From IMG/VR virus record IMGVR_UViG_3300020034_000040, positions 1 through 41,385 of that record: a DNA stretch of 41,385 bases. One strand, written 5' to 3'. Below the pieces are notes generated by a model. The model did no database searches and had not been told where the DNA came from. It saw nothing but the letters and a program-made list of their open reading frames with translations. This stretch comes from a virus. The translations under genes were made by a program, and so were the position numbers. This document shows, piece after piece, positions 15,107-30,707 of this stretch (position 1 is its first letter; each line of letters starts with the position of its first letter).

Positions 15107-15526
15107 ATGTTTTCAGGAATGAGGGGTGTGCTGTTCATTGTGCTGTCTATGCTGCTGGGCGCTTGTCACACCGGTTATGACCCCAGCTGGGAGCGCACCG
15201 TGAGCCCGTCTGGCCGTCCGGCATTCATTCTTGAATGCAGCCGCACTGCATGGTGCATCGAGCTAGCTGGAGACCTTTGCCCCCGTGGCTACAGCGTTCT
15301 CAGCACCGGCACGCAAGGCGACTACGACCCAGCCAATCAAGTTGTAGAGAACACTGCTGCAGCCGCCACAGGGCGATGGCCTGCAAACATGAGCCGCAGC
15401 GTTAGCTACGCTGCCATTGAATGCGCGCGCCAAGAATCACCCAGCCTGCCACCGAAAGTCACGGTTACGAAGAACGCGCCGCCGCCCATGCTGCGAAAGC
15501 CGGTCGCGGTCGACTCTGGGCTCTAG
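15107..15526 (+). CDS. Phage-encoded lipoprotein
   Basis: 139 residues from ATG at 15107; ATG at 15119 is an alternative, as neither has a strong ribosome site. The hydrophobic signal GVLFIVLSMLLGAC ends in a lipobox (LLGAC), predicting a lipid-anchored protein with a mature part of about 120 residues containing several Cys (ECSRTAWCIEL, LCPRG). It is the only plus-strand gene in the left half of the genome besides the IS genes. It ends in a CTAG shared with the oppositely directed primase stop. A lone lipoprotein is typical of lysogenic surface-exclusion or moron genes; that role is inferred. Confidence 0.7.
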   Translation: MFSGMRGVLFIVLSMLLGACHTGYDPSWERTVSPSGRPAFILECSRTAWCIELAGDLCPRGYSVLSTGTQGDYDPANQVVENTAAAATGRWPANMSRSVSYAAIECARQESPSLPPKVTVTKNAPPPMLRKPVAVDSGL

Positions 15527-17391
15527 TCGTCTTCATCGCGCTCAGTTGCCGTCGCGAAGTAGCAATGTGACTTGCCTGGCCCAGGAGAACGCCGAAGGTG
15601 CCCCTCTTCGACCAGCAGAGCAATCGCCCGATCGCTGAGCTTGTTGTCGCCCTTCACGTGTTCACGGATGCGGTTCTTGCCGATGCCAGGAAAGCGCGCC
15701 ACTAGCTCTAGGATGCGCTTCTCAAGCAGTTGAGTCCCTTGTTCAACGCTTGGTCCATCCGCGCTCACGCAGGCTACACGCAGCCCGTAGCGCAGGCTCC
15801 CGCTGTCGTTGCTTAGCCCGTCGCCCACGGTCACTGCCAGCGCTGCCTCCGGAATGCATTCTGCCGGCAAGCTCACGTCCGTCACCTCGAGAGCGAAGTC
15901 CGGCGCTGTGCGGCCGGTGATGCGCGCCTTGTCATGAACCACGGTGGTCGGCCGGCCCTTCTCGCCGCCGAAGATGAACACGCCGCCGCAAGCGTCGAAG
16001 ATGGCGCCCGAACCGCGAATAGCCATGGCCGCCATGCCGGTGTGCTCTTTGGAGGGCTTGCGAGCGTGGTGAATCACCATGAACACACAGCCGGTCGCCT
16101 CTGAGATGCGTGTGAGACCGTCCAGGTGCTTGCGCACATCGGAGCTATTCTCATCGCACGTGGGGAATGCAGCTTTAAGGGAATCAATGATGCAGAGGCG
16201 CTTGCCCTCGCACAGCTGACTCAGCCGCTCGAGCTCGCCGTCCGCGTCCAGGTAGGTGGGCGGGAGCGTGAGTAAGTCCAACTTGCCCGCGAGCTCGTCT
16301 TGCCAAACGCCCATCTCAATGGCCAGGCGCTGGTAGCGCAGCTGGGTCAGGTGGCGCCCCTGCTCGTAATCCACGTGGAGTACGCCGCCTTGGCCCACGT
16401 CGAACTTGCCCCACGCTTGGCGGCCTGCCGCGACCGCTAGTGCAAGGGACTGAAGGCTGACCGTCTTGCCACTGAATCCGTAGCCGGCGATCAGCGTGGG
16501 GGCGCCAGGCGCGATGCTGAGCTCTTTGCAGAGCCAGGGGATGTTGGGCAGCGCTGTGGCTAGTTCTGTCCATCCCAGGACGGCCCAGCCTTTTACGGGT
16601 GCCGCTGGCGTGTACCGGCGCGCCACGCCCTCGGCTACGCGCCGCACCTCGGGCTCATCGAGCGGAGGCCGGCAACGCGCTGCGTTTTCCTGGATGAGGG
16701 CAGCGGTAATCGCCGGAGCACCGAATCCACGGCGGCGCATGGCGCCTGCCATGACCGTCAGGGCGTCATTGCGGCCGCCGGACACGAATGCGTCAGCGGC
16801 CGCAGGCCCTTCAGCAAGGGCCTTTGCGCGCTTCTGGCGGGCACTGGCCAGGAACCACTTGGGGGCAGGCTCGGTGGTTTCGCCGCCGCCCACGTCCCAC
16901 GAGTAGCGCCGGCCTGACTCGTGAAGGCTGGGCGGGGCGATCACGTATCCGCCCTCACCGCGCACGTCGAGGCCAGGCCCGACGAGCTCGACGCTGTTCG
17001 GCACGCGCTCGCCGTCGCTCAGCAGGTACCAATGCTCACCACCGGAGCCCGTCACCGAGCGGCGCGTGTCGGGCAAGTCCAGGCCATTGCTGGTACCGCC
17101 TTTGTCCGGGTCCACGTCGAGCACGACCAGGCCACCACCAGTCGCGACACCAATGTTTGCGTCGCTCCACTTGCCCCACCAGTCGCGTACCTGTTTCTCG
17201 TCGCCGCTCGCATCGGTGCAACCCTTCAGCGTGCGAGGGTGCTTTCCAATCGAGGTGCAGTCCAGCTTGTTGCAGCTGCAATGCGTGCCCGTCTTGCTCA
17301 CTTTCGGTGTGTGGCACGGGAAAACCCGATAGCCCTGCGCCAACAGCTCGAGCGCGGCGTCTAGCATCACGGGGGACTTGGCTACGGGCAT
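15523..17391 (-). CDS. Bifunctional primase-polymerase/helicase replication protein
   Basis: 622 residues from ATG at 17391 (TGATG with the upstream stop). The N-terminal Prim-Pol domain shows AQGYRVFPCHTP, a small Cys cluster, GVATGGGLVVLDVDPDKGG with the acidic pair, GGEHWYLL and a later LDVRGEGGYVIAPPS. The C-terminal RecA-like ATPase has Walker A AGYGFSGKTVS, Walker B LCIIDSLKAAF and the sensor VIHHARKP. The last about 60 residues look like a winged helix (GIGKNRIREHVKGDNKLSDRA). It should prime and unwind at the phage origin. It lies beside the iteron array. Confidence 0.85.
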   Translation of the reverse strand: MPVAKSPVMLDAALELLAQGYRVFPCHTPKVSKTGTHCSCNKLDCTSIGKHPRTLKGCTDASGDEKQVRDWWGKWSDANIGVATGGGLVVLDVDPDKGGTSNGLDLPDTRRSVTGSGGEHWYLLSDGERVPNSVELVGPGLDVRGEGGYVIAPPSLHESGRRYSWDVGGGETTEPAPKWFLASARQKRAKALAEGPAAADAFVSGGRNDALTVMAGAMRRRGFGAPAITAALIQENAARCRPPLDEPEVRRVAEGVARRYTPAAPVKGWAVLGWTELATALPNIPWLCKELSIAPGAPTLIAGYGFSGKTVSLQSLALAVAAGRQAWGKFDVGQGGVLHVDYEQGRHLTQLRYQRLAIEMGVWQDELAGKLDLLTLPPTYLDADGELERLSQLCEGKRLCIIDSLKAAFPTCDENSSDVRKHLDGLTRISEATGCVFMVIHHARKPSKEHTGMAAMAIRGSGAIFDACGGVFIFGGEKGRPTTVVHDKARITGRTAPDFALEVTDVSLPAECIPEAALAVTVGDGLSNDSGSLRYGLRVACVSADGPSVEQGTQLLEKRILELVARFPGIGKNRIREHVKGDNKLSDRAIALLVEEGHLRRSPGPGKSHCYFATATERDEDD

Positions 17392-18002
17392 CACTTACGC
17401 ACCTCGGCTTGCCTGGCCAAGCCGATGAGCATTTCGGCGAAGAGGGGGGGGGAGTGGATTGCTTGCTTGTGCGTCAAGCGAGGGCGGTCGTTTGCACGTC
17501 CGCGCAGGTGGTTCCCGCACCACGACACCAGCGCCTTGCATTCACGGTCCGGCGTGACACCCCAGAGAAGCTCAGGCGGCGCTTCGGCTCCCACGTAGTA
17601 GAGCCAAGTCGCTTTCTTGGCCATGTGCCCGTAGCGGCACTGCTCGACATAGCAAGTCCACTCGCCCGGCAAAGCGCCCGGTACCCAACCGCCACCGGTC
17701 GGCGGCTTTGGTAGACCGAAAGCTGGCCATGCTTTCGAGTAGGCCGGATGCTCGAGCACGCCGCCAACGCGCCGAAGCGTGGCGAGCGCAGAGGCAAAGC
17801 ATCCGCCGTCGTCGCCAATCTTGTGGCCCCAACGAGCTTGCACAAGGCCAGCCAAGCGGCACCAGCGTGAGCAAGGCGGATGCGCCACCACCGGCGCCGG
17901 CCCCACGTACAGCCGCGCGTCACGGCTCTCGTCGAACCACTGTGAAACGAGCTTCGGGTACGGACCGCGCGGGTCGACATACAGGGCAACAGGCTCTCTC
18001 AC
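17391..18002 (-). CDS. PPC-motif phage protein of unknown function
   Basis: 203 residues from GTG at 18002 (GTGA overlap). VVAHPPCSRWCRLAGL, then GGCFASALATLRRVGGVLEHPAYSKAW and GHMAKKATWLYYVG, form a pattern I know from many phage and prophage proteins. The PPC element recalls the active site loop of cytosine-C5 DNA methyltransferases, but no AdoMet-binding motif is visible. A catalytic role is not claimed. It stands directly before the primase. Confidence 0.6.
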   Translation of the reverse strand: MREPVALYVDPRGPYPKLVSQWFDESRDARLYVGPAPVVAHPPCSRWCRLAGLVQARWGHKIGDDGGCFASALATLRRVGGVLEHPAYSKAWPAFGLPKPPTGGGWVPGALPGEWTCYVEQCRYGHMAKKATWLYYVGAEAPPELLWGVTPDRECKALVSWCGNHLRGRANDRPRLTHKQAIHSPPLFAEMLIGLARQAEVRK

Positions 18003-20628: not shown

Positions 20629-20936
20629 CGCTGCAGCTCCGGAAGTGGCGCCGTGATGGCGGCCAGGATGCGGAATGCAGCGGCGGGGGCGAACTCAGTG
20701 ACCGGGCGATTGCCCCGGTCGCGGTTGCAGCCCATGCAGGCCGTCAGCAGGTTCTCTGTGGTGTTCGTCCCGCCCGCGCTGCGCGGCACCATGTGGTCGA
20801 GCGTGAGGCGCTCAGCGAGCGTGCCGCAGTAGATGCAGCGATGTCCGTCACGCGCGTAGATGCGCCGCCGCCGCACCTTGCCAATCCACTTCGAACCCTT
20901 GCCGGCGTTGCCAGCAGTGCGACCTCTAACCGGCAT
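20625..20936 (-). CDS. HNH endonuclease
   Basis: 103 residues from ATG at 20936 (GAGGGAG six bases upstream; 11-base overlap with the helicase). It shows RDGHRCIYCG, LTLDHMVPRSAGG and ENLLTACMGCNRDRG, the Cys-coordinated HNH finger with the catalytic His in DHMVP. It probably nicks or cuts DNA during replication or packaging. A homing role is less likely because the gene is coupled in the operon. Confidence 0.88.
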   Translation of the reverse strand: MPVRGRTAGNAGKGSKWIGKVRRRRIYARDGHRCIYCGTLAERLTLDHMVPRSAGGTNTTENLLTACMGCNRDRGNRPVTEFAPAAAFRILAAITAPLPELQR

Positions 20937-22236
20937 GTGACGCTCCCTCTTCTTTGATCCATTGCTGTGGCGGCCAGTACCCAAACCGAGCGCGGTACCG
21001 ATGCATTGCCCACCCGGGCTTGTGACCAGACGCGGCGCCCTTCAGCAACTGCGAGCGAAAGAACGCGCGCTTGCTTGACTCGGGCGTGACGTTGTCGATT
21101 CGCGCTAGCTCAGCTTTCTTTTCGCGCGGCTGCTCAGCGACCGGAAACACGTACGAGCAGCGCTCGCACACCGCGCGCATGCGGAACACGGCTCCACACG
21201 ACGGGCACTGGCGGACCGCTGGCAGCGCTTTGTCGACAGTGATCGGCTTCCCACTGAGCGAATAAATCCGCGAATCGTCGGGCATGCCGTGCTGGTGCAC
21301 CGCCCCCTTGCAGTCGATGAGTAGGCAATCCTTCTTCCCTTCAGAAGGGCGACGGATGCGCCCAATCACCTGCAGGAACGTGGCCGCTGACGAGCAGCTG
21401 CGCGCCATCACGCACACTTCGACGGACGGACAATCCCAGCCCTCGGTCAGCACGAAAACGTTCACGAGCACCCGGATGCGCCCAGCGTCGAACGCCTCCA
21501 GCGTGGCCGCGCGCTCGTCAGCGTCCGTCTTGCCGTCGATGTAGCCGGCCTCATCGCCCCAAGTCCGCGCAAGCTCGCGGCCGTGCGCGACGCTGGAGGC
21601 GAAAACCACGGCCTTGCGGTTCGGCGCGTACTTCTCGAGCGACGCTACCGGGTCAATGATGTCCGAGCCTTCGAGCCGACACGGCGGACCGATTACGGTG
21701 ATCGGAACCAGGTGCCCAGCTGCCACTAGCTCGGGGATGGTTGCGACCTCCAGCAGCTCATCGAACATGCCGTTCAGCCCCGTGCCGTCCGGACGCTGTG
21801 GGGTCGCGGTGAAGCCCGTCACCGGCACGCCGCGGTACGGCTCCATCAGCTTGTTCCATTCGACGCTGAGGTAGTGGTGGGCCTCGTCGGGGATGAGTAG
21901 CGACGCCTTGGGGCGCAGCTGGGGGCGAGCCAGCAGCGTCTGAATGCTGCACACCACGACCTTGGCGTTTTGATTGAAGCCGCCTTCGGCCGCGATGGCG
22001 CCCAGGTCGCGGATGCCCGCTTTCCAGAGCTTGTCGACGGCTTGCTTCACCAGCTCGATGCGGTGCGCAAGGCAGACCACCTGGCCCTCGCGGGCGTAGT
22101 GCAGCTGGGCAATCTTCGAGAGAATCACCGTCTTGCCGCTCCCCGTGGGCGAGACGAACAGGACGGAGCGCTTGCCGCGCTGAAAGGCTTCCCGTCCGCG
22201 CTCGATGGCGCGGAGCTGATAGTCGCGCAGCTCCAT
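20926..22236 (-). CDS. SF2 DEAD/DEAH-box helicase, RadD-like
   Basis: 436 residues. Motif I SPTGSGKT (29-36), II DEAH (117-120), III TATP (143-146), VI QVIGRIRR (289-296). A C-terminal zinc ribbon has C344, C347, C357 and C360. The fold and the zinc site match RadD/ComFA-type helicases often found in phage replication regions. It should remodel DNA during replication or repair. It starts at the stop of the sigma-4-like gene. Confidence 0.88.
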   Translation of the reverse strand: MELRDYQLRAIERGREAFQRGKRSVLFVSPTGSGKTVILSKIAQLHYAREGQVVCLAHRIELVKQAVDKLWKAGIRDLGAIAAEGGFNQNAKVVVCSIQTLLARPQLRPKASLLIPDEAHHYLSVEWNKLMEPYRGVPVTGFTATPQRPDGTGLNGMFDELLEVATIPELVAAGHLVPITVIGPPCRLEGSDIIDPVASLEKYAPNRKAVVFASSVAHGRELARTWGDEAGYIDGKTDADERAATLEAFDAGRIRVLVNVFVLTEGWDCPSVEVCVMARSCSSAATFLQVIGRIRRPSEGKKDCLLIDCKGAVHQHGMPDDSRIYSLSGKPITVDKALPAVRQCPSCGAVFRMRAVCERCSYVFPVAEQPREKKAELARIDNVTPESSKRAFFRSQLLKGAASGHKPGWAMHRYRARFGYWPPQQWIKEEGASHAG

Positions 22237-22763: not shown

Positions 22764-23098
22764 TTAACCCACGCCCCCCCCCACTCGAAGCCGAGCTGTT
22801 TCGGCGACACTTTGGCGCCCTTCGTGGGCGCGACAGGTCGCCCCGTGCTGCGCGGCACAATCGAAACCCAGTGCTCGGTTTTGTTCGCCCAAGCGCGGAG
22901 CCGTTCGAGGTCAGCGTCTACGATGCGCCAGTCGGCGCACGGCGCCTCGAGCCAGCCATGATTCAGGTTCGCTCTGTAGCTGCCCGCCATCGGGAAACGC
23001 AGCGCGACGATCGGACGCTTCGGGTCGTCGAAGCCGACGACGGTCGCGATCTTGGTCGCGCCGCCGCGGTGGACGATGCTGACTTCAGCGCTTTCCAC
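22760..23098 (-). CDS. Unknown protein, early leftward operon
   Basis: 112 residues; overlaps the previous gene by 14 bases and the next by ATGA. It looks beta-rich at first (VSIVHRGGATKIATVVGFDD), then helical (DLERLRAWANKTEHW), and ends GFEWGGAWVK. I do not recognise it. Confidence 0.6.
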   Translation of the reverse strand: MESAEVSIVHRGGATKIATVVGFDDPKRPIVALRFPMAGSYRANLNHGWLEAPCADWRIVDADLERLRAWANKTEHWVSIVPRSTGRPVAPTKGAKVSPKQLGFEWGGAWVK

Positions 23099-23339
23099 GG
23101 CGCTTCTCTTTCAACCAGCGCTGAATGTCTTCTACGTCGAAGCGCGGGTATTCGCCGGGCTGTACGTAGGGGCAGCCCTCGGCCATCATTTTGCGCAGCG
23201 TGCCGCGCGAGATGCTGAGGGCCTTCATGATCTCAACCGAGCTCACGTGTGTCTTCACGCCGCGCGGTTGCGACAGGCGCTCGACCACCAGCGCGAGCTC
23301 TTCGCGCACGATGGTGCGCAGCGTGTCTTCAAGAGACAC
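23085..23339 (-). CDS. AlpA/MerR-like helix-turn-helix protein, excisionase candidate
   Basis: 84 residues from GTG at 23339, with GGAG nine bases upstream and an 11-base overlap with the preceding gene; an ATG at 23390 in frame is possible. VSSVEIMKALSISRGTLRKM then PGEYPRFDVEDIQRWLKEK is the winged helix-turn-helix of excisionase and AlpA proteins. Second gene after the leftward promoter, so it could be the excisionase or a control protein. Confidence 0.7.
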   Translation of the reverse strand: MSLEDTLRTIVREELALVVERLSQPRGVKTHVSSVEIMKALSISRGTLRKMMAEGCPYVQPGEYPRFDVEDIQRWLKEKRRGKR

Positions 23340-23505
23340 GGCGGTCCGCTCCGGCCAGGTCGACCAGTGGGAGCAACCAACGGAAACCATCCCGCGAGAC
23401 GACTTGCGCAGCCGTCGGGCTCGCCAGCCGATGAAACTTCCCGCTGTAGCGGCGCCCGCTCGCGCTGATCCAAGAGACCGAATCCCCAGACTTCAAGGCC
23501 TTCAT
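23329..23505 (-). CDS. Small first gene of the leftward early operon
   Basis: 58 residues. ATG at 23505 with AGGAG ten bases upstream, TGA at 23329-23331. It has KALKSGDSVSWISASGRRYS and ends LVDLAGADRRVS, with a small beta-rich look. It is the first gene behind the leftward TTGACA promoter. Function unknown. Confidence 0.6.
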   Translation of the reverse strand: MKALKSGDSVSWISASGRRYSGKFHRLASPTAAQVVSRDGFRWLLPLVDLAGADRRVS

Positions 23506-23626: not shown

Positions 23627-23661
23627 TGTTGCATCTAGATACTGATGTCAAGATGCACCGT
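23627..23661 (-). promoter_or_regulatory. Left operator/promoter, inverted copy
   Basis: This 35-bp site is the reverse complement of 24139-24173 with one mismatch. Inside it, TGCATCT and AGATGCA form inverted half-sites 14 bases apart, and ATCTAGAT is palindromic. On the minus strand it holds TTGACA, with CACCAT 17 bases further on (A, A and T of the -10 hexamer match), pointing to the leftward early operon. It lies 26 bases before the repressor start. Confidence 0.75.
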
Positions 23662-23687
23662 GGCTAACGTGTGAGGATCGCTCCGAG

Positions 23688-24020
23688 ATGCCGAAGCAGA
23701 AGTTCAAAGCTCCGCTGGAGATGCAGGCGCTGCCAGAGCGCCTCGCGCTTGCGCTCAAAGAGGCGCACGTCTCTCAGAACGAGCTGGCGCGTCGAATCGG
23801 CGTGAGTTCACCAAGTATCGGCGCTCGGATGAGCGTCGACGGCTCGTCTGCGGCCATGTTTGTGCTGATCGCGAAGAAGCTAAACGTTCGCGTTGGCTGG
23901 CTCTTGGTGGGCGAAGGTGAGATGCGCGAGGAGCCGCCGCCTCAGCGCCATGTCCTCGCTCTCGAGCCAGACGCGACAGGTCTGAAGGAAGCAAAGCGAC
24001 CCCGACGCTCGCGCGATTAG
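23688..24020 (+). CDS. Cro/CI-type (XRE) repressor
   Basis: 110 residues. Residues 14-60 are a helix-turn-helix of the XRE type (LPERLALALKEAHVSQNELA, RRIGVSSPSIGARMS). FVLIAKKLNVRVGWLLVGEG follows, the usual end of this domain. There is no LexA-like peptidase domain, so induction would not be by self-cleavage. It lies between two inverted copies of a 35-bp site, the expected operators. Confidence 0.85.
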   Translation: MPKQKFKAPLEMQALPERLALALKEAHVSQNELARRIGVSSPSIGARMSVDGSSAAMFVLIAKKLNVRVGWLLVGEGEMREEPPPQRHVLALEPDATGLKEAKRPRRSRD

Positions 24021-24138
24021 CCGGCCTCCCTGGTAGAAGCTGCCCCGCCACCCAGCCCCGTGCCGCTCAAACATAGCTAGCTGCCCCATTACAGTCACCT
24101 GAACGAGTGAGGCGCCCAGGCACATCCACATTTTTTAT

Positions 24139-24173
24139 ACGGTGCATCTTGACACCAGTATCTAGATGCAACA
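24139..24173 (+). promoter_or_regulatory. Right operator/promoter
   Basis: This 35-bp site is the inverted partner of 23627-23661 (34 of 35 identical). TTGACA at 24149-24154 and CAGTCT at 24172-24177 (17-base spacer; A2 and T6 conserved) point rightward. A T-run and TATA just upstream (24131-24139) could act as an UP element. The first gene starts at 24186, about nine bases past the -10, so its transcript would be nearly leaderless. Confidence 0.75.
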
Positions 24174-24185
24174 GTCTCTCCGACC

Positions 24186-24377
24186 ATGAGCAGGAGAGAG
24201 CGGGATTCGAGTGCTTGCCGTTGTTGTGGGGGGCAGTCCGCTCCCACACCGCAGAACGTAGTCGGCGCGCAAGTCGCGCCTTTCGTCTACTTGCTGCTTT
24301 ACAACTGCGCGTGCGGTTCAACCCGCGCAGTGACGCTCTGGGAAGCCTCGGACTTCGCCGCTGAGCGAGCGGCGTAG
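24186..24377 (+). CDS. Small zinc-ribbon protein, first rightward early gene
   Basis: 63 residues with two Cys pairs (CRCCGG and NCACGSTRAV) and the sequence PFVYLLLYNCACGSTRAVTL, a pattern seen in small phage zinc-ribbon proteins. It starts just past the rightward promoter. Function unknown. The 141 bases that follow up to 24518 hold no convincing gene; a minus-strand frame there crosses two plus-strand genes. Confidence 0.65.
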   Translation: MSRRERDSSACRCCGGQSAPTPQNVVGAQVAPFVYLLLYNCACGSTRAVTLWEASDFAAERAA

Positions 24378-24518: not shown

Positions 24519-25250
24519 ATGCCTGACCAAGAAAAAGTATTAGTTTTGCGCACGTGCGCGTCCGACATGAGCGCGTACAACGGTTTCAAGTGGAAGGAAT
24601 CTGGCGAGGTTTCGGCGCCAGATTGGCAACCCGAGCCGCGTTGCGGCCATGGTCTCCATGGCTTGCTCTGGGGTTGCGGCGACGGTGGTCTGCTCGGTAA
24701 CGCGCTCGACGCAAAGTGGCTTGTCGTCGAGGTCGAAGCCGCTTCGATTGTCGAACTCGACGGCAAGGTGAAGTTCCCGAAGGGTGAAGTCATCTTCTGC
24801 GGCGACCGCAAGGGAGCGACGGAGCTCATCTCGGGCCGCGCGCCGAAGGCGAACCTGCCCATTGTTTGGCTTTCGATCACTGCGGGGGACAGAGGCACCG
24901 CGACTGCGGGGGACAGAGGCACCGCCACTGCGGGGTACAGAGGCACCGCGACTGCGGGGGACGACGGCACCGCCACTGCGGGGGACAGAGGCACCGCGAC
25001 TGCGGGGAGCTACGGCACCGCCACTGCGGGGTACAGAGGCACCGCGACTGCGGGGGACAGAGGCACCGCGACTGCGAGGGACGGAGGCACCGCGACTGCG
25101 GGGGACGGAGGCACCCTGCAGATCAAACGCTACGACCCGGTCGCTGAACGGCATCGCATCGTCACGGGTTACGTCGGTGAAGACGGCATCGAAGCCAACG
25201 TGCCTTACACGCTCGACCAAAACGGCAAGCTCGTTCGGAAGGTGCCGTGA
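24519..25250 (+). CDS. DUF7666-type protein with ten TATAG-repeats (copy 1)
   Basis: 243 residues. The N-terminal domain (VLVLRTCASDM, GHGLHGLLWG, AKWLVVEVEA, KVKFPKGEVIFCGDRKGAT) belongs to a family I know as DUF7666. Ten exact 8-residue units follow, TAGDRGTA and variants (TAGYRGTA, TAGSYGTA), which should fold as a beta-solenoid. A short C-terminal domain (YVGEDGIEANVPYTL) closes it. GGGAG lies seven bases before the ATG. A paralogue lies at 29452-30165. Function unknown; surface or ligand binding is plausible. Confidence 0.75.
   Translation: MPDQEKVLVLRTCASDMSAYNGFKWKESGEVSAPDWQPEPRCGHGLHGLLWGCGDGGLLGNALDAKWLVVEVEAASIVELDGKVKFPKGEVIFCGDRKGATELISGRAPKANLPIVWLSITAGDRGTATAGDRGTATAGYRGTATAGDDGTATAGDRGTATAGSYGTATAGYRGTATAGDRGTATARDGGTATAGDGGTLQIKRYDPVAERHRIVTGYVGEDGIEANVPYTLDQNGKLVRKVP
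24879..25118 (+). repeat. 24-bp tandem repeat array, 10 units
   Basis: Ten head-to-tail 24-bp units (ACTGCGGGGGACAGAGGCAC plus CGCG or CGCC) encode TAG-x-x-G-T-A. Units are nearly identical also at silent positions and match those at 29869-30036. Confidence 0.9.
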
Positions 25251-25528
25251 TGCAGAAGTACCCCGATGGTGACTCTCGGCGCCTTGGTCCTAACTACAAG
25301 TCATACCAGGGAGCCACGAAGGCTTGCGTTGAGATGCGCGACCATCAAAACGAGCTCGCGCAGAAGAGAGGCTTTCGCTCGTACCTGGCGCTGCTCTTCG
25401 GTGCCAACCAGGCCGGCGACAAGGCGCCAAAGAAGCCATGGCGCAGCGCCGCTTACGCCGGCAAGACGCGCGCTCGCGAGGCCAAGCGCCTTGCCGAGCG
25501 CGCAGAAAGGCAGGCCTCCAATGGCTGA
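25250..25528 (+). CDS. Small basic protein
   Basis: 92 residues from ATG at 25250 (TGATG with the gene before). Rich in Arg, Lys and Ala (SAAYAGKTRAREAKRLAERA), with AQKRGFRSYLALLFG in the middle. Function unknown. It overlaps the nuclease start by eight bases, so it probably belongs with the recombination genes. Confidence 0.6.
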   Translation: MQKYPDGDSRRLGPNYKSYQGATKACVEMRDHQNELAQKRGFRSYLALLFGANQAGDKAPKKPWRSAAYAGKTRAREAKRLAERAERQASNG

Positions 25529-26522
25529 GCCTGTCCGTCTGCCCCTCATGACCAACAGTCGCGCGAAGTCGTTCCGACGCTGCGCGCGGCACCACCTCAT
25601 CAGCTACCAGCAAGGTATCCGGCCTATCGAGAAAGCCGGCCCGCTTGGCTTCGGCGGCATCTTCCACAAGATGCTCGAGTCGTGGTGGCTGGCCGCGGAG
25701 CTCAAGCTAGAGGCGGCGCTCGCCACTCTCGAGCAGCAGGACATTCCGGATGAATTCGACCGCATTCGGCACCAAGAGCTGATGCTCGGCTACGACGCTC
25801 GTTGGGGCGCTGAGCCGGTACGAACGCTGCGCGTAGAGGCGCAATTCGAGTGCGAGCTGCGCAACCCGGAGACCGGACAGGCGTCGCGCACCTGGCGCCT
25901 AGGCGGCAAGCTTGACGCGATTGCGGAGCGCGACGGGCGCCCTTGGATTGTCGAGCACAAGACGACCACGGAAGACATCTCGCCGGGCTCGCCCTACTGG
26001 CGGATGCTCCGCCTCGACACCCAGGTGTCAACCTACTTCGTGGGTGCCGAATCTCTCGGTTTTGACGTAGAGGGGTGCATCTACGACGTGATTCGCAAGC
26101 CAAGCCTCAAGCGCCTGGAGGCTACGCCCGTCGAGTCGCGCAAGTTCAAGAAAGACGGGTCGCTGTACGCGAGCCAGCGCGATTGCGACGAGACGCCGGA
26201 GGAATTCCGCGAGCGCTTCCGGGCGCACGTCGGCGATCACCTTCAGGACTTGTTCCAGCGCGGCGACGTGTCGCGTGTCCCCGAGGAGCTTGCCGATTCA
26301 GCCTTCGACCTCTGGCAAACCGCGCGCCTCATTCGCGAAGCGGAGCTGGCCGAGCGGCATCCGCGTAACCCGGACTCGTGCCGTCAGTGGTCGCGATTCT
26401 GCGAATACTTCGACGTGTGCACGGGGGCGGCGTCGCTCGACGACGCCTCGCGATTCCGGAAGGTCGAGTCAGCAAACGAGGAGTTGGACAATGCAGCAGA
26501 CCCAGCAACAGCAACCCAGTAA
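25521..26522 (+). CDS. Cas4/RecB-like PD-(D/E)XK nuclease with probable Fe-S cluster
   Basis: 333 residues. The nuclease core shows FHKMLE (H49), GGKLDAI (D132) and IVEHKT (E145, K147). C21 near the N terminus and C-terminal CRQWSRFCEYFDVC give the four-Cys layout of Cas4/AddB-type iron-sulfur nucleases. It should act as a DNA end-processing exonuclease. It precedes a Sak4-like ATPase and an SSB-like gene, the usual phage recombination set. Confidence 0.85.
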   Translation: MAEPVRLPLMTNSRAKSFRRCARHHLISYQQGIRPIEKAGPLGFGGIFHKMLESWWLAAELKLEAALATLEQQDIPDEFDRIRHQELMLGYDARWGAEPVRTLRVEAQFECELRNPETGQASRTWRLGGKLDAIAERDGRPWIVEHKTTTEDISPGSPYWRMLRLDTQVSTYFVGAESLGFDVEGCIYDVIRKPSLKRLEATPVESRKFKKDGSLYASQRDCDETPEEFRERFRAHVGDHLQDLFQRGDVSRVPEELADSAFDLWQTARLIREAELAERHPRNPDSCRQWSRFCEYFDVCTGAASLDDASRFRKVESANEELDNAADPATATQ

Positions 26523-27769: not shown

Positions 27770-27850
27770 GAGAGCCGCCTTCGGGCTCTCCGCCTGCTCA
27801 CCAGGGACACCAGCCCTTCAATGGGATGTTTTTGGTGAGCAGGCGGAGAG
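27770..27850 (+). promoter_or_regulatory. Two mutually exclusive hairpins before the integrase unit
   Basis: Hairpin A, 27770-27790: GAGAGCC-7-GGCTCTC. Hairpin B: 27786-27803 pairs with 27833-27850, an 18-bp perfect stem (CTCTCCGCCTGCTCACCA with its complement) around a 29-base loop. They share 27786-27790, so only one can form. The ribosome site of the next gene follows directly after the stem. Neither has a clean T-run. It may act as an attenuator or translational switch for the 74-residue gene and integrase. Confidence 0.6.
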
Positions 27851-27859
27851 GAAGAAGAG

Positions 27860-28084
27860 ATGACCCCTACCGAACAGAAACATCTACTCGATTCGATCGC
27901 GCGCGCGCTCCATGGCTGGCCGGATGACGACTCGCGCCGTAGCTATGCCCCGAGTGAGCTGCCGGCTCTTGCCCGACGTTTGCGCCGCAAGGCAGAGGTG
28001 CTTGATGCGGCGCGCAGCGGAGCAGATGCTCCCGAAGTGGTTGCCGCCAAGGCGGACGGGTGCGAATACCCGAACCAGGATTAG
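27860..28084 (+). CDS. Small protein before integrase
   Basis: 74 residues with a strong ribosome site (GGAAGAAGAG). Helical start (TEQKHLLDSIARALHGW), then LPALARRLRRKAEVLDAARS. No helix-turn-helix is evident, so it is not called an excisionase, though the place before integrase would suit a partner of it. Unknown. Confidence 0.6.
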   Translation: MTPTEQKHLLDSIARALHGWPDDDSRRSYAPSELPALARRLRRKAEVLDAARSGADAPEVVAAKADGCEYPNQD

Positions 28085-28088
28085 GACC

Positions 28089-29451
<1,363 letters not shown>

Positions 29452-29465
<14 letters not shown>

Positions 29466-30165
29466 GAAGAAGGCCGTCCGCAAGGTGGTCAAGAGCAAGA
29501 GTGTGCGCGCGCGTCGGCTGGCCGTGGCGACCGTTTTGGTCCTCCGCACCTGCAGTGCCAACATGGTCTCTCACAAAGGTTTCAGGTGGCCTCAGAAGGG
29601 CGCCGTGAAGGCGCCGGACTGGCGCCCCGTTGCGGAGTGCGGGAACGGCTTGCACGGGCTCCTTTGGGGTGAGGGTGAGGGTGCGCACCTGGATTACAGC
29701 CTCACGGCCAAGTGGCTGGTTGTCGAGGTTCCGGCCAAGAGCATCGTTGACCTGAAGGGCAAGGTGAAGTTTCCGGCAGGCAAGGTGGTTTACTGCGGCA
29801 CCCGGCTTGGCGCTACGAGCTTTATTGCTGCCAAGCGGCCAGGGGCCGCGATCTGCGGCGGCACCGCGACTGCGGGGGACAGAGGCACCGCCACTGCGGG
29901 GAGCTACGGCACCGCCACTGCGGGGAGCTACGGCACCGCCACTGCGGGGTACAGAGGCACCGCGACTGCGGGGGACGCCGGCACCGCCACTGCGGGGGAC
30001 AGAGGCACCGCGACTGCGGGGAGCTACGGCAGGCTTGAGCTTCTCTACTGGGATGACAAGGCAAGCCGCTGCCGCAAAGCGCTCGCGTACGTGGGAGAGG
30101 GCGGCATCAAGCCCAACACCAAGTACAAGCTGAACGGCTCGGCGTTCGTCGAGGTGAAGCCGTGA
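29452..30165 (+). CDS. DUF7666-type protein with seven TATAG-repeats (copy 2)
   Basis: 237 residues from ATG at 29452, with GGGAG seven bases upstream; it overlaps the integrase end. A basic N-terminal extension (MQKSKKKAVRKVVKSKSVRA) is absent from copy 1. The domain LVLRTCSANM, GNGLHGLLWG, AKWLVVEVPA, KVKFPAGKVVYCGTRLGAT follows. Then come seven 8-residue repeats and the end domain YVGEGGIKPNTKYKL. It lies beyond attP, so after integration it would be at the opposite end of the prophage from int. Confidence 0.75.
29869..30036 (+). repeat. 24-bp tandem repeat array, 7 units
   Basis: Seven 24-bp units of the same kind as at 24879-25118, encoding TAGDRGTA, TAGSYGTA, TAGYRGTA and TAGDAGTA. Several units are identical in both arrays, including silent positions. 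Confidence 0.9.
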
Positions 30166-30707
30166 CGACCGCGGCAGAGCGGGCGAAAGCCGGGCGCTTC
30201 CCGCCGATCGCTTTCATCCGTGGTGACGCCACCAGGCCCGAGGGTGACGGCCTGAAGCTCATCCTCCATATTTGCAATGACGTGGGCGCTTGGGGCGCTG
30301 GCTTCGTGATGGCCATCTCGAAGCGCTGGAAAGCGCCACGCCAGTTCTACCTGGAGAGCCCGTTCTCCAGCCGCTTGAGCGTGATTCAGCCCGTGAAGGT
30401 GGAATCCGATATCGACGTAATCAACATGATTGCGCAGCACGGGTTTCCCAATAATGAGCAGCGGTGCGCGCTCGACTACCGCGCGCTGCACACGTGCTTG
30501 CGGCACGTCGCCTTCGCCTACGAGAGCCTGGAAAACGTCAGCATTCACATGCCGCGCATCGGCTGCGGCATCGCCGGGGGCGACTGGGCTCGCGTCGAGC
30601 TCATCATCCAAGAGACGCTCAGCAAGGCTGGCTTCCCGGTGACGGTGTACGACTTTCCGCCGAAAACCGCTAGCGGCCCGCTGGCATCTGCTCGCGAATC
30701 ACTTTGA
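30162..30707 (+). CDS. Macro-domain protein (ADP-ribose binding or hydrolysing)
   Basis: 181 residues from GTG at 30162 (GTGA overlap). GDAT at 21-24, HICNDVGAWGAGF around 36-48 and MPRIGCGIAGGDWARVELII at 130-149 are macro-domain motifs of the Poa1-like group, which bind ADP-ribose and may remove phosphate or ADP-ribose groups. N39 and the glycine loops are intact. It ends in a 38-base convergent overlap with the last late gene. A role against NAD-based defence or in tRNA end repair is possible. Confidence 0.85.
   Translation: MTTAAERAKAGRFPPIAFIRGDATRPEGDGLKLILHICNDVGAWGAGFVMAISKRWKAPRQFYLESPFSSRLSVIQPVKVESDIDVINMIAQHGFPNNEQRCALDYRALHTCLRHVAFAYESLENVSIHMPRIGCGIAGGDWARVELIIQETLSKAGFPVTVYDFPPKTASGPLASARESL

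Follow-up and report, generated by a model that had tools for sequence, protein, structure and literature searches.

The locus studied here lies in a virus contig of 41,385 bases, which was analyzed over its whole length (the window). It centers on a small repressor gene that separates a leftward operon, encoding a helix-turn-helix (HTH) protein, a helicase, and a primase-polymerase, from a rightward operon encoding an exonuclease and an integrase. The genes and the two flanking sites are listed below, with the evidence for each in parentheses.

15523-17394, minus strand: primase-polymerase, leftward operon (PF09250, phrog_5852)
20926-22236, minus strand: DNA helicase, leftward (replication) operon (PF04851, phrog_16)
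23085-23339, minus strand: second leftward open reading frame (ORF), HTH_17/excisionase-like regulator (PF12728 at 8e-4, phrog_668, phrog_66)
23332-23505, minus strand: first leftward ORF, ~57 aa, with GGAG (Shine-Dalgarno) 5' of its ATG (sequence, translation)
23627-23661, minus strand: left mirrored operator-promoter site, predicted, OR-like, directed outward to the left (34/35 inverted match; TTGACA-17 bp-CACCAT)
23688-24020, plus strand: 110-aa CI-like/XRE repressor gene, DNA-binding domain only (PF07022, PF01381, phrog_2328, phrog_4)
24139-24173, plus strand: right mirrored operator-promoter site, predicted, OL-like, directed outward to the right (inverted match; TTGACA-17 bp-CAGTCT)
24186-24377, plus strand: first rightward ORF, 63 aa, CxCC...CxC, zinc-ribbon-like (sequence)
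25266-26522, plus strand: PD-(D/E)XK exonuclease, rightward operon (PF12705, phrog_1218)
27912-29465, plus strand: tyrosine integrase, rightward operon (PF00589, phrog_1)

The repressor scores 32.6 bits (E = 1e-7) against the Phage_CI_repr family PF07022, for which the Pfam cutoff is 22, and it also matches HTH_3 (PF01381) at 6e-5 and the transcriptional repressor groups phrog_2328 and phrog_4. It is 38.6 to 40% identical, over 70 to 83 aa, to the N-terminal domains of the CI proteins of AsXd-1 and HK639, and stops at residue 110, without the C-terminal domain that both of those proteins possess. In lambda, HK639, and AsXd-1, this domain is involved in oligomerization and SOS cleavage, and it lies outside the Pfam definition of PF07022. 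Short repressors of about this size exist, such as the 111-aa protein of contig L104, considered below, and gp33-103 of phage BPs (PMC4557955). A structure model of the repressor was too poor for use (pLDDT 49), and a sequence search of the PDB returned no match. An earlier sequence-only reading had held that nothing but an XRE repressor lies between the two sites, and this was borne out, as 23688-24020, with its PF07022 and HTH_3 matches, is the one plausible gene there.

Among the flanking genes, the HTH_17/excisionase-like ORF begins with a GTG that overlaps the 3' end of the ~57-aa ORF. On the other side, the 63-aa ORF had no family match. Its ATG, at 24186, lies 8 nt past the inferred -10 hexamer and is not preceded by a Shine-Dalgarno sequence or by another in-frame start, which makes a leaderless mRNA likely; such mRNAs are documented in the cro region of PY54 (PMC4488713). 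A rightward DUF7666 gene separates the 63-aa ORF from the exonuclease. Two paralogs of this family (phrog_18079) occur in the rightward region, at 24519-25250 and 29323-30165, and approximately ten 24-bp tandem repeats (24880-25120) within the DUF7666/phrog_18079 gene encode repeats of the type TATAGDRG. A phosphatase-like gene (30162-30707; phrog_335, with a weak Macro-domain match) is also present in the rightward region. The segment at 27786-27850, immediately upstream of the integrase gene, contains a perfect inverted repeat of 18 bp, CTCTCCGCCTGCTCACCA / TGGTGAGCAGGCGGAGAG, with a loop of ~29 bp, and a second hairpin, GAGAGCC-GGGCTCTC, overlaps this repeat. These are possibly alternative hairpins that control int, or they may belong to attP. 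Neither the Rfam search nor the tRNA search of the window gave a hit.

The mirrored sites had been described as matching at 34 of 35 positions when one of them is reverse-complemented, and an inverted repeat finder recovered the same pair (23627-23661 and 24139-24173; 35 nt, 97% complementary, 477 nt apart). They differ at one position, A23644 versus the complement of 24156, and similarity ends abruptly at either edge of the 35 bp. With up to 3 mismatches allowed, the contig contains exactly 2 copies of the site, where shuffled sequences lead one to expect 0. The inverted half-sites reported for each arm were confirmed as well: the pattern TGCATCT-N14-AGATGCA occurs in the window only at 23630-23657 and 24143-24170 (0 expected). 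Five Markov-shuffled windows were free of perfect 16-bp inverted pairs spaced by up to 1 kb. The inverted match of the two arms is far beyond chance, and the window holds no extra operator copies above chance. The window has 9 AGATGCA half-sites, of which the two mirrored sites account for 4; another exact copy falls in the repressor gene, at 23719-23725 (~60 bp downstream from the left site), and may be there by chance. The 97% identity of the arms may reflect either recent duplication or constraint over their full length.

Both sites contain an outward-facing TTGACA, at 23647-23642 on the minus strand and 24149-24154 on the plus strand. At a spacing of 17 bp, these are followed by the hexamers CACCAT on the left, which matches TATAAT at 3 of 6 positions, and CAGTCT on the right (24172-24177), which matches at 2 of 6. 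An outward TTGACA with a weak -10 at 17 bases had been proposed for each site; the arrangement holds, and "weak" is the right label given these matches. A consensus promoter scan that required at least 4 of 6 matches in each hexamer reported no promoter. The outward promoters are thus plausible yet weak by consensus. A search for a good sigma-70 promoter that could serve the repressor gene itself found none.

Each 35-bp site contains a 28-bp dyad that can be divided into two adjoining 14-mers, which we refer to as units A and B.

23630-23643, plus strand: unit A of the left site, TGCATCTAGATACT, near-palindromic with core GCATCTAGATAC, in the spacer between the leftward -35 and -10 (sequence, 14-bp unit scan, geometry compared with relatives)
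23644-23657, minus strand: unit B of the left site, TGCATCTTGACATC, a degenerate second unit that contains the -35 TTGACA (sequence, 14-bp unit scan)
24143-24156, plus strand: unit B of the right site, TGCATCTTGACACC, which contains the -35 (14-bp unit scan)
24157-24170, minus strand: unit A of the right site, TGCATCTAGATACT, within the -35/-10 spacer (14-bp unit scan)

The 17-bp spacer of each predicted outward promoter contains unit A. Unit B differs from unit A at 3 positions in the right site and 4 in the left, and 2 of these differences convert TAGATA to TTGACA, a perfect -35 consensus, which suggests that unit B serves both as a promoter element and as a binding site. The earlier view that each side is one site needs revision, as each probably consists of two abutting, unequal 14-bp predicted units, one in the spacer and one over the -35, rather than one simple site. 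The centers of A and B are only ~14 to 15 bp apart, compared with 21 to 25 bp between the operators of relatives, a spacing that may be too short for two dimers to sit next to each other as in those phages. It is possible, if somewhat doubtful, that the whole 35-bp site is instead a single operator across two helical turns, in which one dimer or tetramer contacts the outer TGCATCT/AGATGCA half-sites, which share one face of the DNA at a distance of 21 bp, and the middle is promoter spacer only. The full 28-bp dyad has the strongest symmetry (7/7 outer pairs, and 10 or 11 of 14 overall), and the lone mismatch between the sites falls at its center, as this reading would have it. However, the operators of related repressors are 14-bp palindromes whose half-sites are separated by roughly one turn, unit A is near-palindromic by itself, and the inner bases match between the two sites as well as the outer ones do, all of which favors two units. 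This alternative concerns the mode of binding and leaves the OL/OR role of the sites as it is.

The sequence-only reading had also proposed a search of related phages for the same mirrored pair. Searches of viral and/or genome collections found no close relatives of the repressor, exonuclease, terminase, or integrase, and neither the exact nor a relaxed operator sequence was found in viral contigs. We gathered related repressors from viral contigs and screened them for inverted repeats flanking the gene. Such repeats accompany the repressors of the HK639 group, which are 36 to 42% identical to this one: in HK639-type phages, a set of three 14-bp operators (ATAAC-N4-GTTAT) precedes cI or lies at its start, and a mirrored set follows the gene. 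In three contigs (L005, L034, and L042), the downstream set lies 88 to 157 bp past the repressor stop, and only cI lies between the two sets, the gap past cI being too small for another ordinary-sized gene. In a second survey, which covered 42 contigs that have the motif WLLxGEGxM, L104 and L091 were found to have a 111-aa repressor flanked by mirrored 47-bp sites (38/47). In L104, a diverging 77-aa ORF lies on one side of the repressor and a RecT-bearing operon on the other. The outward promoters are TTGCCA/TTGCCT-17-TATGGT/TATGTG in L104 and TTGCCA/TGGACA-17-TATCTT in L005 and HK639, so that all three share the layout seen here, with a -35, a 17-bp spacer, and an operator unit inside the spacer. 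The orientation of the repressor relative to the replication genes and to the recombination/integration genes is also the same in HK639 and L104 as here; as in HK639, the gene points away from the replication side. The layout sought thus exists in distant relatives and in the unrelated L104, whereas the exact sites were found nowhere else.

These comparisons bear on what else the two sites could be. Long, near-identical inverted repeats with internal dyads, in a phage that encodes a tyrosine integrase, could be recombination sites between which the repressor segment inverts. We consider this highly improbable, as the integrase lies 4 kb away, the repressor keeps the same orientation in HK639 and L104, the mirrored layout recurs with unrelated operator sequences, and flipping between matched operators would alter little. 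Less probable still is that the sites are the terminal inverted repeats of a small transposon-like repressor cassette: the outer arm ends do read TG ... CA, but no target-site duplication adjoins the arms, no transposase lies between them, no further copy occurs in the contig, and none was found in viral contigs. Both readings were rejected on the grounds that target duplications and a transposase are absent and the same layout is found elsewhere with unrelated sequences. A third alternative is that the sites mainly serve the leftward HTH_17/excisionase-like protein, as a Cro- or Cox-like lytic regulator, while the CI-like protein binds elsewhere. An HTH regulator is indeed encoded at the cro/cII position; however, no other repeat or palindrome that could be a candidate for the CI-like protein was found nearby, and the mirrored sites of the relatives flank the CI gene, which makes this quite unlikely. 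By analogy with lambda CI and Cro, it is possible that both proteins share the sites.

Taken together, we consider it very probable, from sequence and comparison, that the segment is the OR-cI-OL immunity region of a temperate phage and that the 35-bp sites are the operator-promoters of both early operons, bound by the small repressor. From the sites, the gene order, and the anatomy shared with other phages, all read directly, we infer binding, promoter activity, repression, and autoregulation as follows. The small repressor would bind units A and B, and the 28 bp would probably be occupied by two dimers or a single tetramer. Bound repressor would block RNA polymerase at both early promoters, and repression would cover the leftward replication genes and the rightward exonuclease and integrase genes. 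The repressor would probably also regulate itself, because the left site is just upstream of its own start. The idea that one repressor controls two early operons through mirrored, merged operator-promoters gains support from the distant relatives and from the unrelated small-repressor phage. Looping between sites ~510 bp apart, which had also been suggested, is possible but found no support, and the missing C-terminal oligomerization domain makes it less likely.

The immunity region is clean and compact, and it comes from a phage lineage without close sequenced relatives. Its small repressor and two matched sites would make it a convenient test of a lysogeny switch that operates without a cooperativity domain. 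It also shows that a lone repressor between mirrored operators is a recurring arrangement, in which neither the repressors nor the operator sequences need be related. More speculatively, and in our estimation rather unlikely as a whole, the region may represent a minimal lambda-type switch, in which a repressor consisting of a DNA-binding domain only acts on one composite operator per side, kept near-identical, with a tetramer or ~512-bp looping replacing multi-operator cooperativity, and with leaderless transcription on the right.

Compared with known systems, the HK639/AsXd-1 type (L002-L005, L034, L042, and L060) shares a homologous DNA-binding domain (~40%), mirrored operators on both sides, only cI between the sites in some contigs, and predicted promoters with 17-bp spacers that overlap the operators; it differs in having three 14-bp operators per side, 21 to 25 bp apart, another operator sequence, and a C-terminal domain. 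L104 and L091 share a small repressor alone between mirrored sites, with one operator in the spacer and one at the -35, but their operator sequence is different, their two operators are 25 bp apart, and their 111-aa XRE repressor is not closely related. Among described systems, units A and B are most closely paralleled in mycobacteriophage BPs, where the 103-aa repressor gp33-103 behaves as a tetramer and the operators consist of a 12-bp palindrome with a degenerate partner, the OR palindrome lying between -35 and -10 (PMC4557955). A repressor of ~100 aa and a composite operator are thus common to both, whereas BPs has five regulatory regions genome-wide instead of a mirrored pair that flanks the repressor gene, integration-dependent immunity, and 5 or 8 bp between units.

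Lambdoid immunity regions have several separate operators per side; two or three per side is typical, though not strictly defining, of the lambda type, whereas here each side has one 35-bp composite site. As in the lambda type, the repressor gene lies between the predicted operators of two diverging early operons, with the exonuclease and integrase on one side and the HTH, helicase, and primase-polymerase genes on the other. The contrast with lambda drawn in the sequence-only reading is valid as regards one composite site per side, but it was overstated, as lambda, HK022, and phiKO2 themselves have mirrored OL and OR flanking the repressor gene (PMC8053113). The OL-OR distance is ~700 bp in HK022 and ~630 bp, on either side of cB, in phiKO2, and OL-OR looping was shown by a loopometer assay (PMC8053113); N15 and phiKO2 have several separate operators per side (PMC4488713). 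HK022 and phiKO2 therefore resemble this locus in that operators of the early operons flank the repressor gene at similar spacing, and differ in their multiple operators per side and oligomerizing C-terminal domain, where the present locus has a single composite site on each side and a repressor of 110 aa. The region is a compact version of the lambda-type OL-cI-OR switch and not a new kind of system, made distinctive by its single composite site on each side, a site identity of 97%, which exceeds that of every comparator examined, and a repressor without a cooperativity domain.
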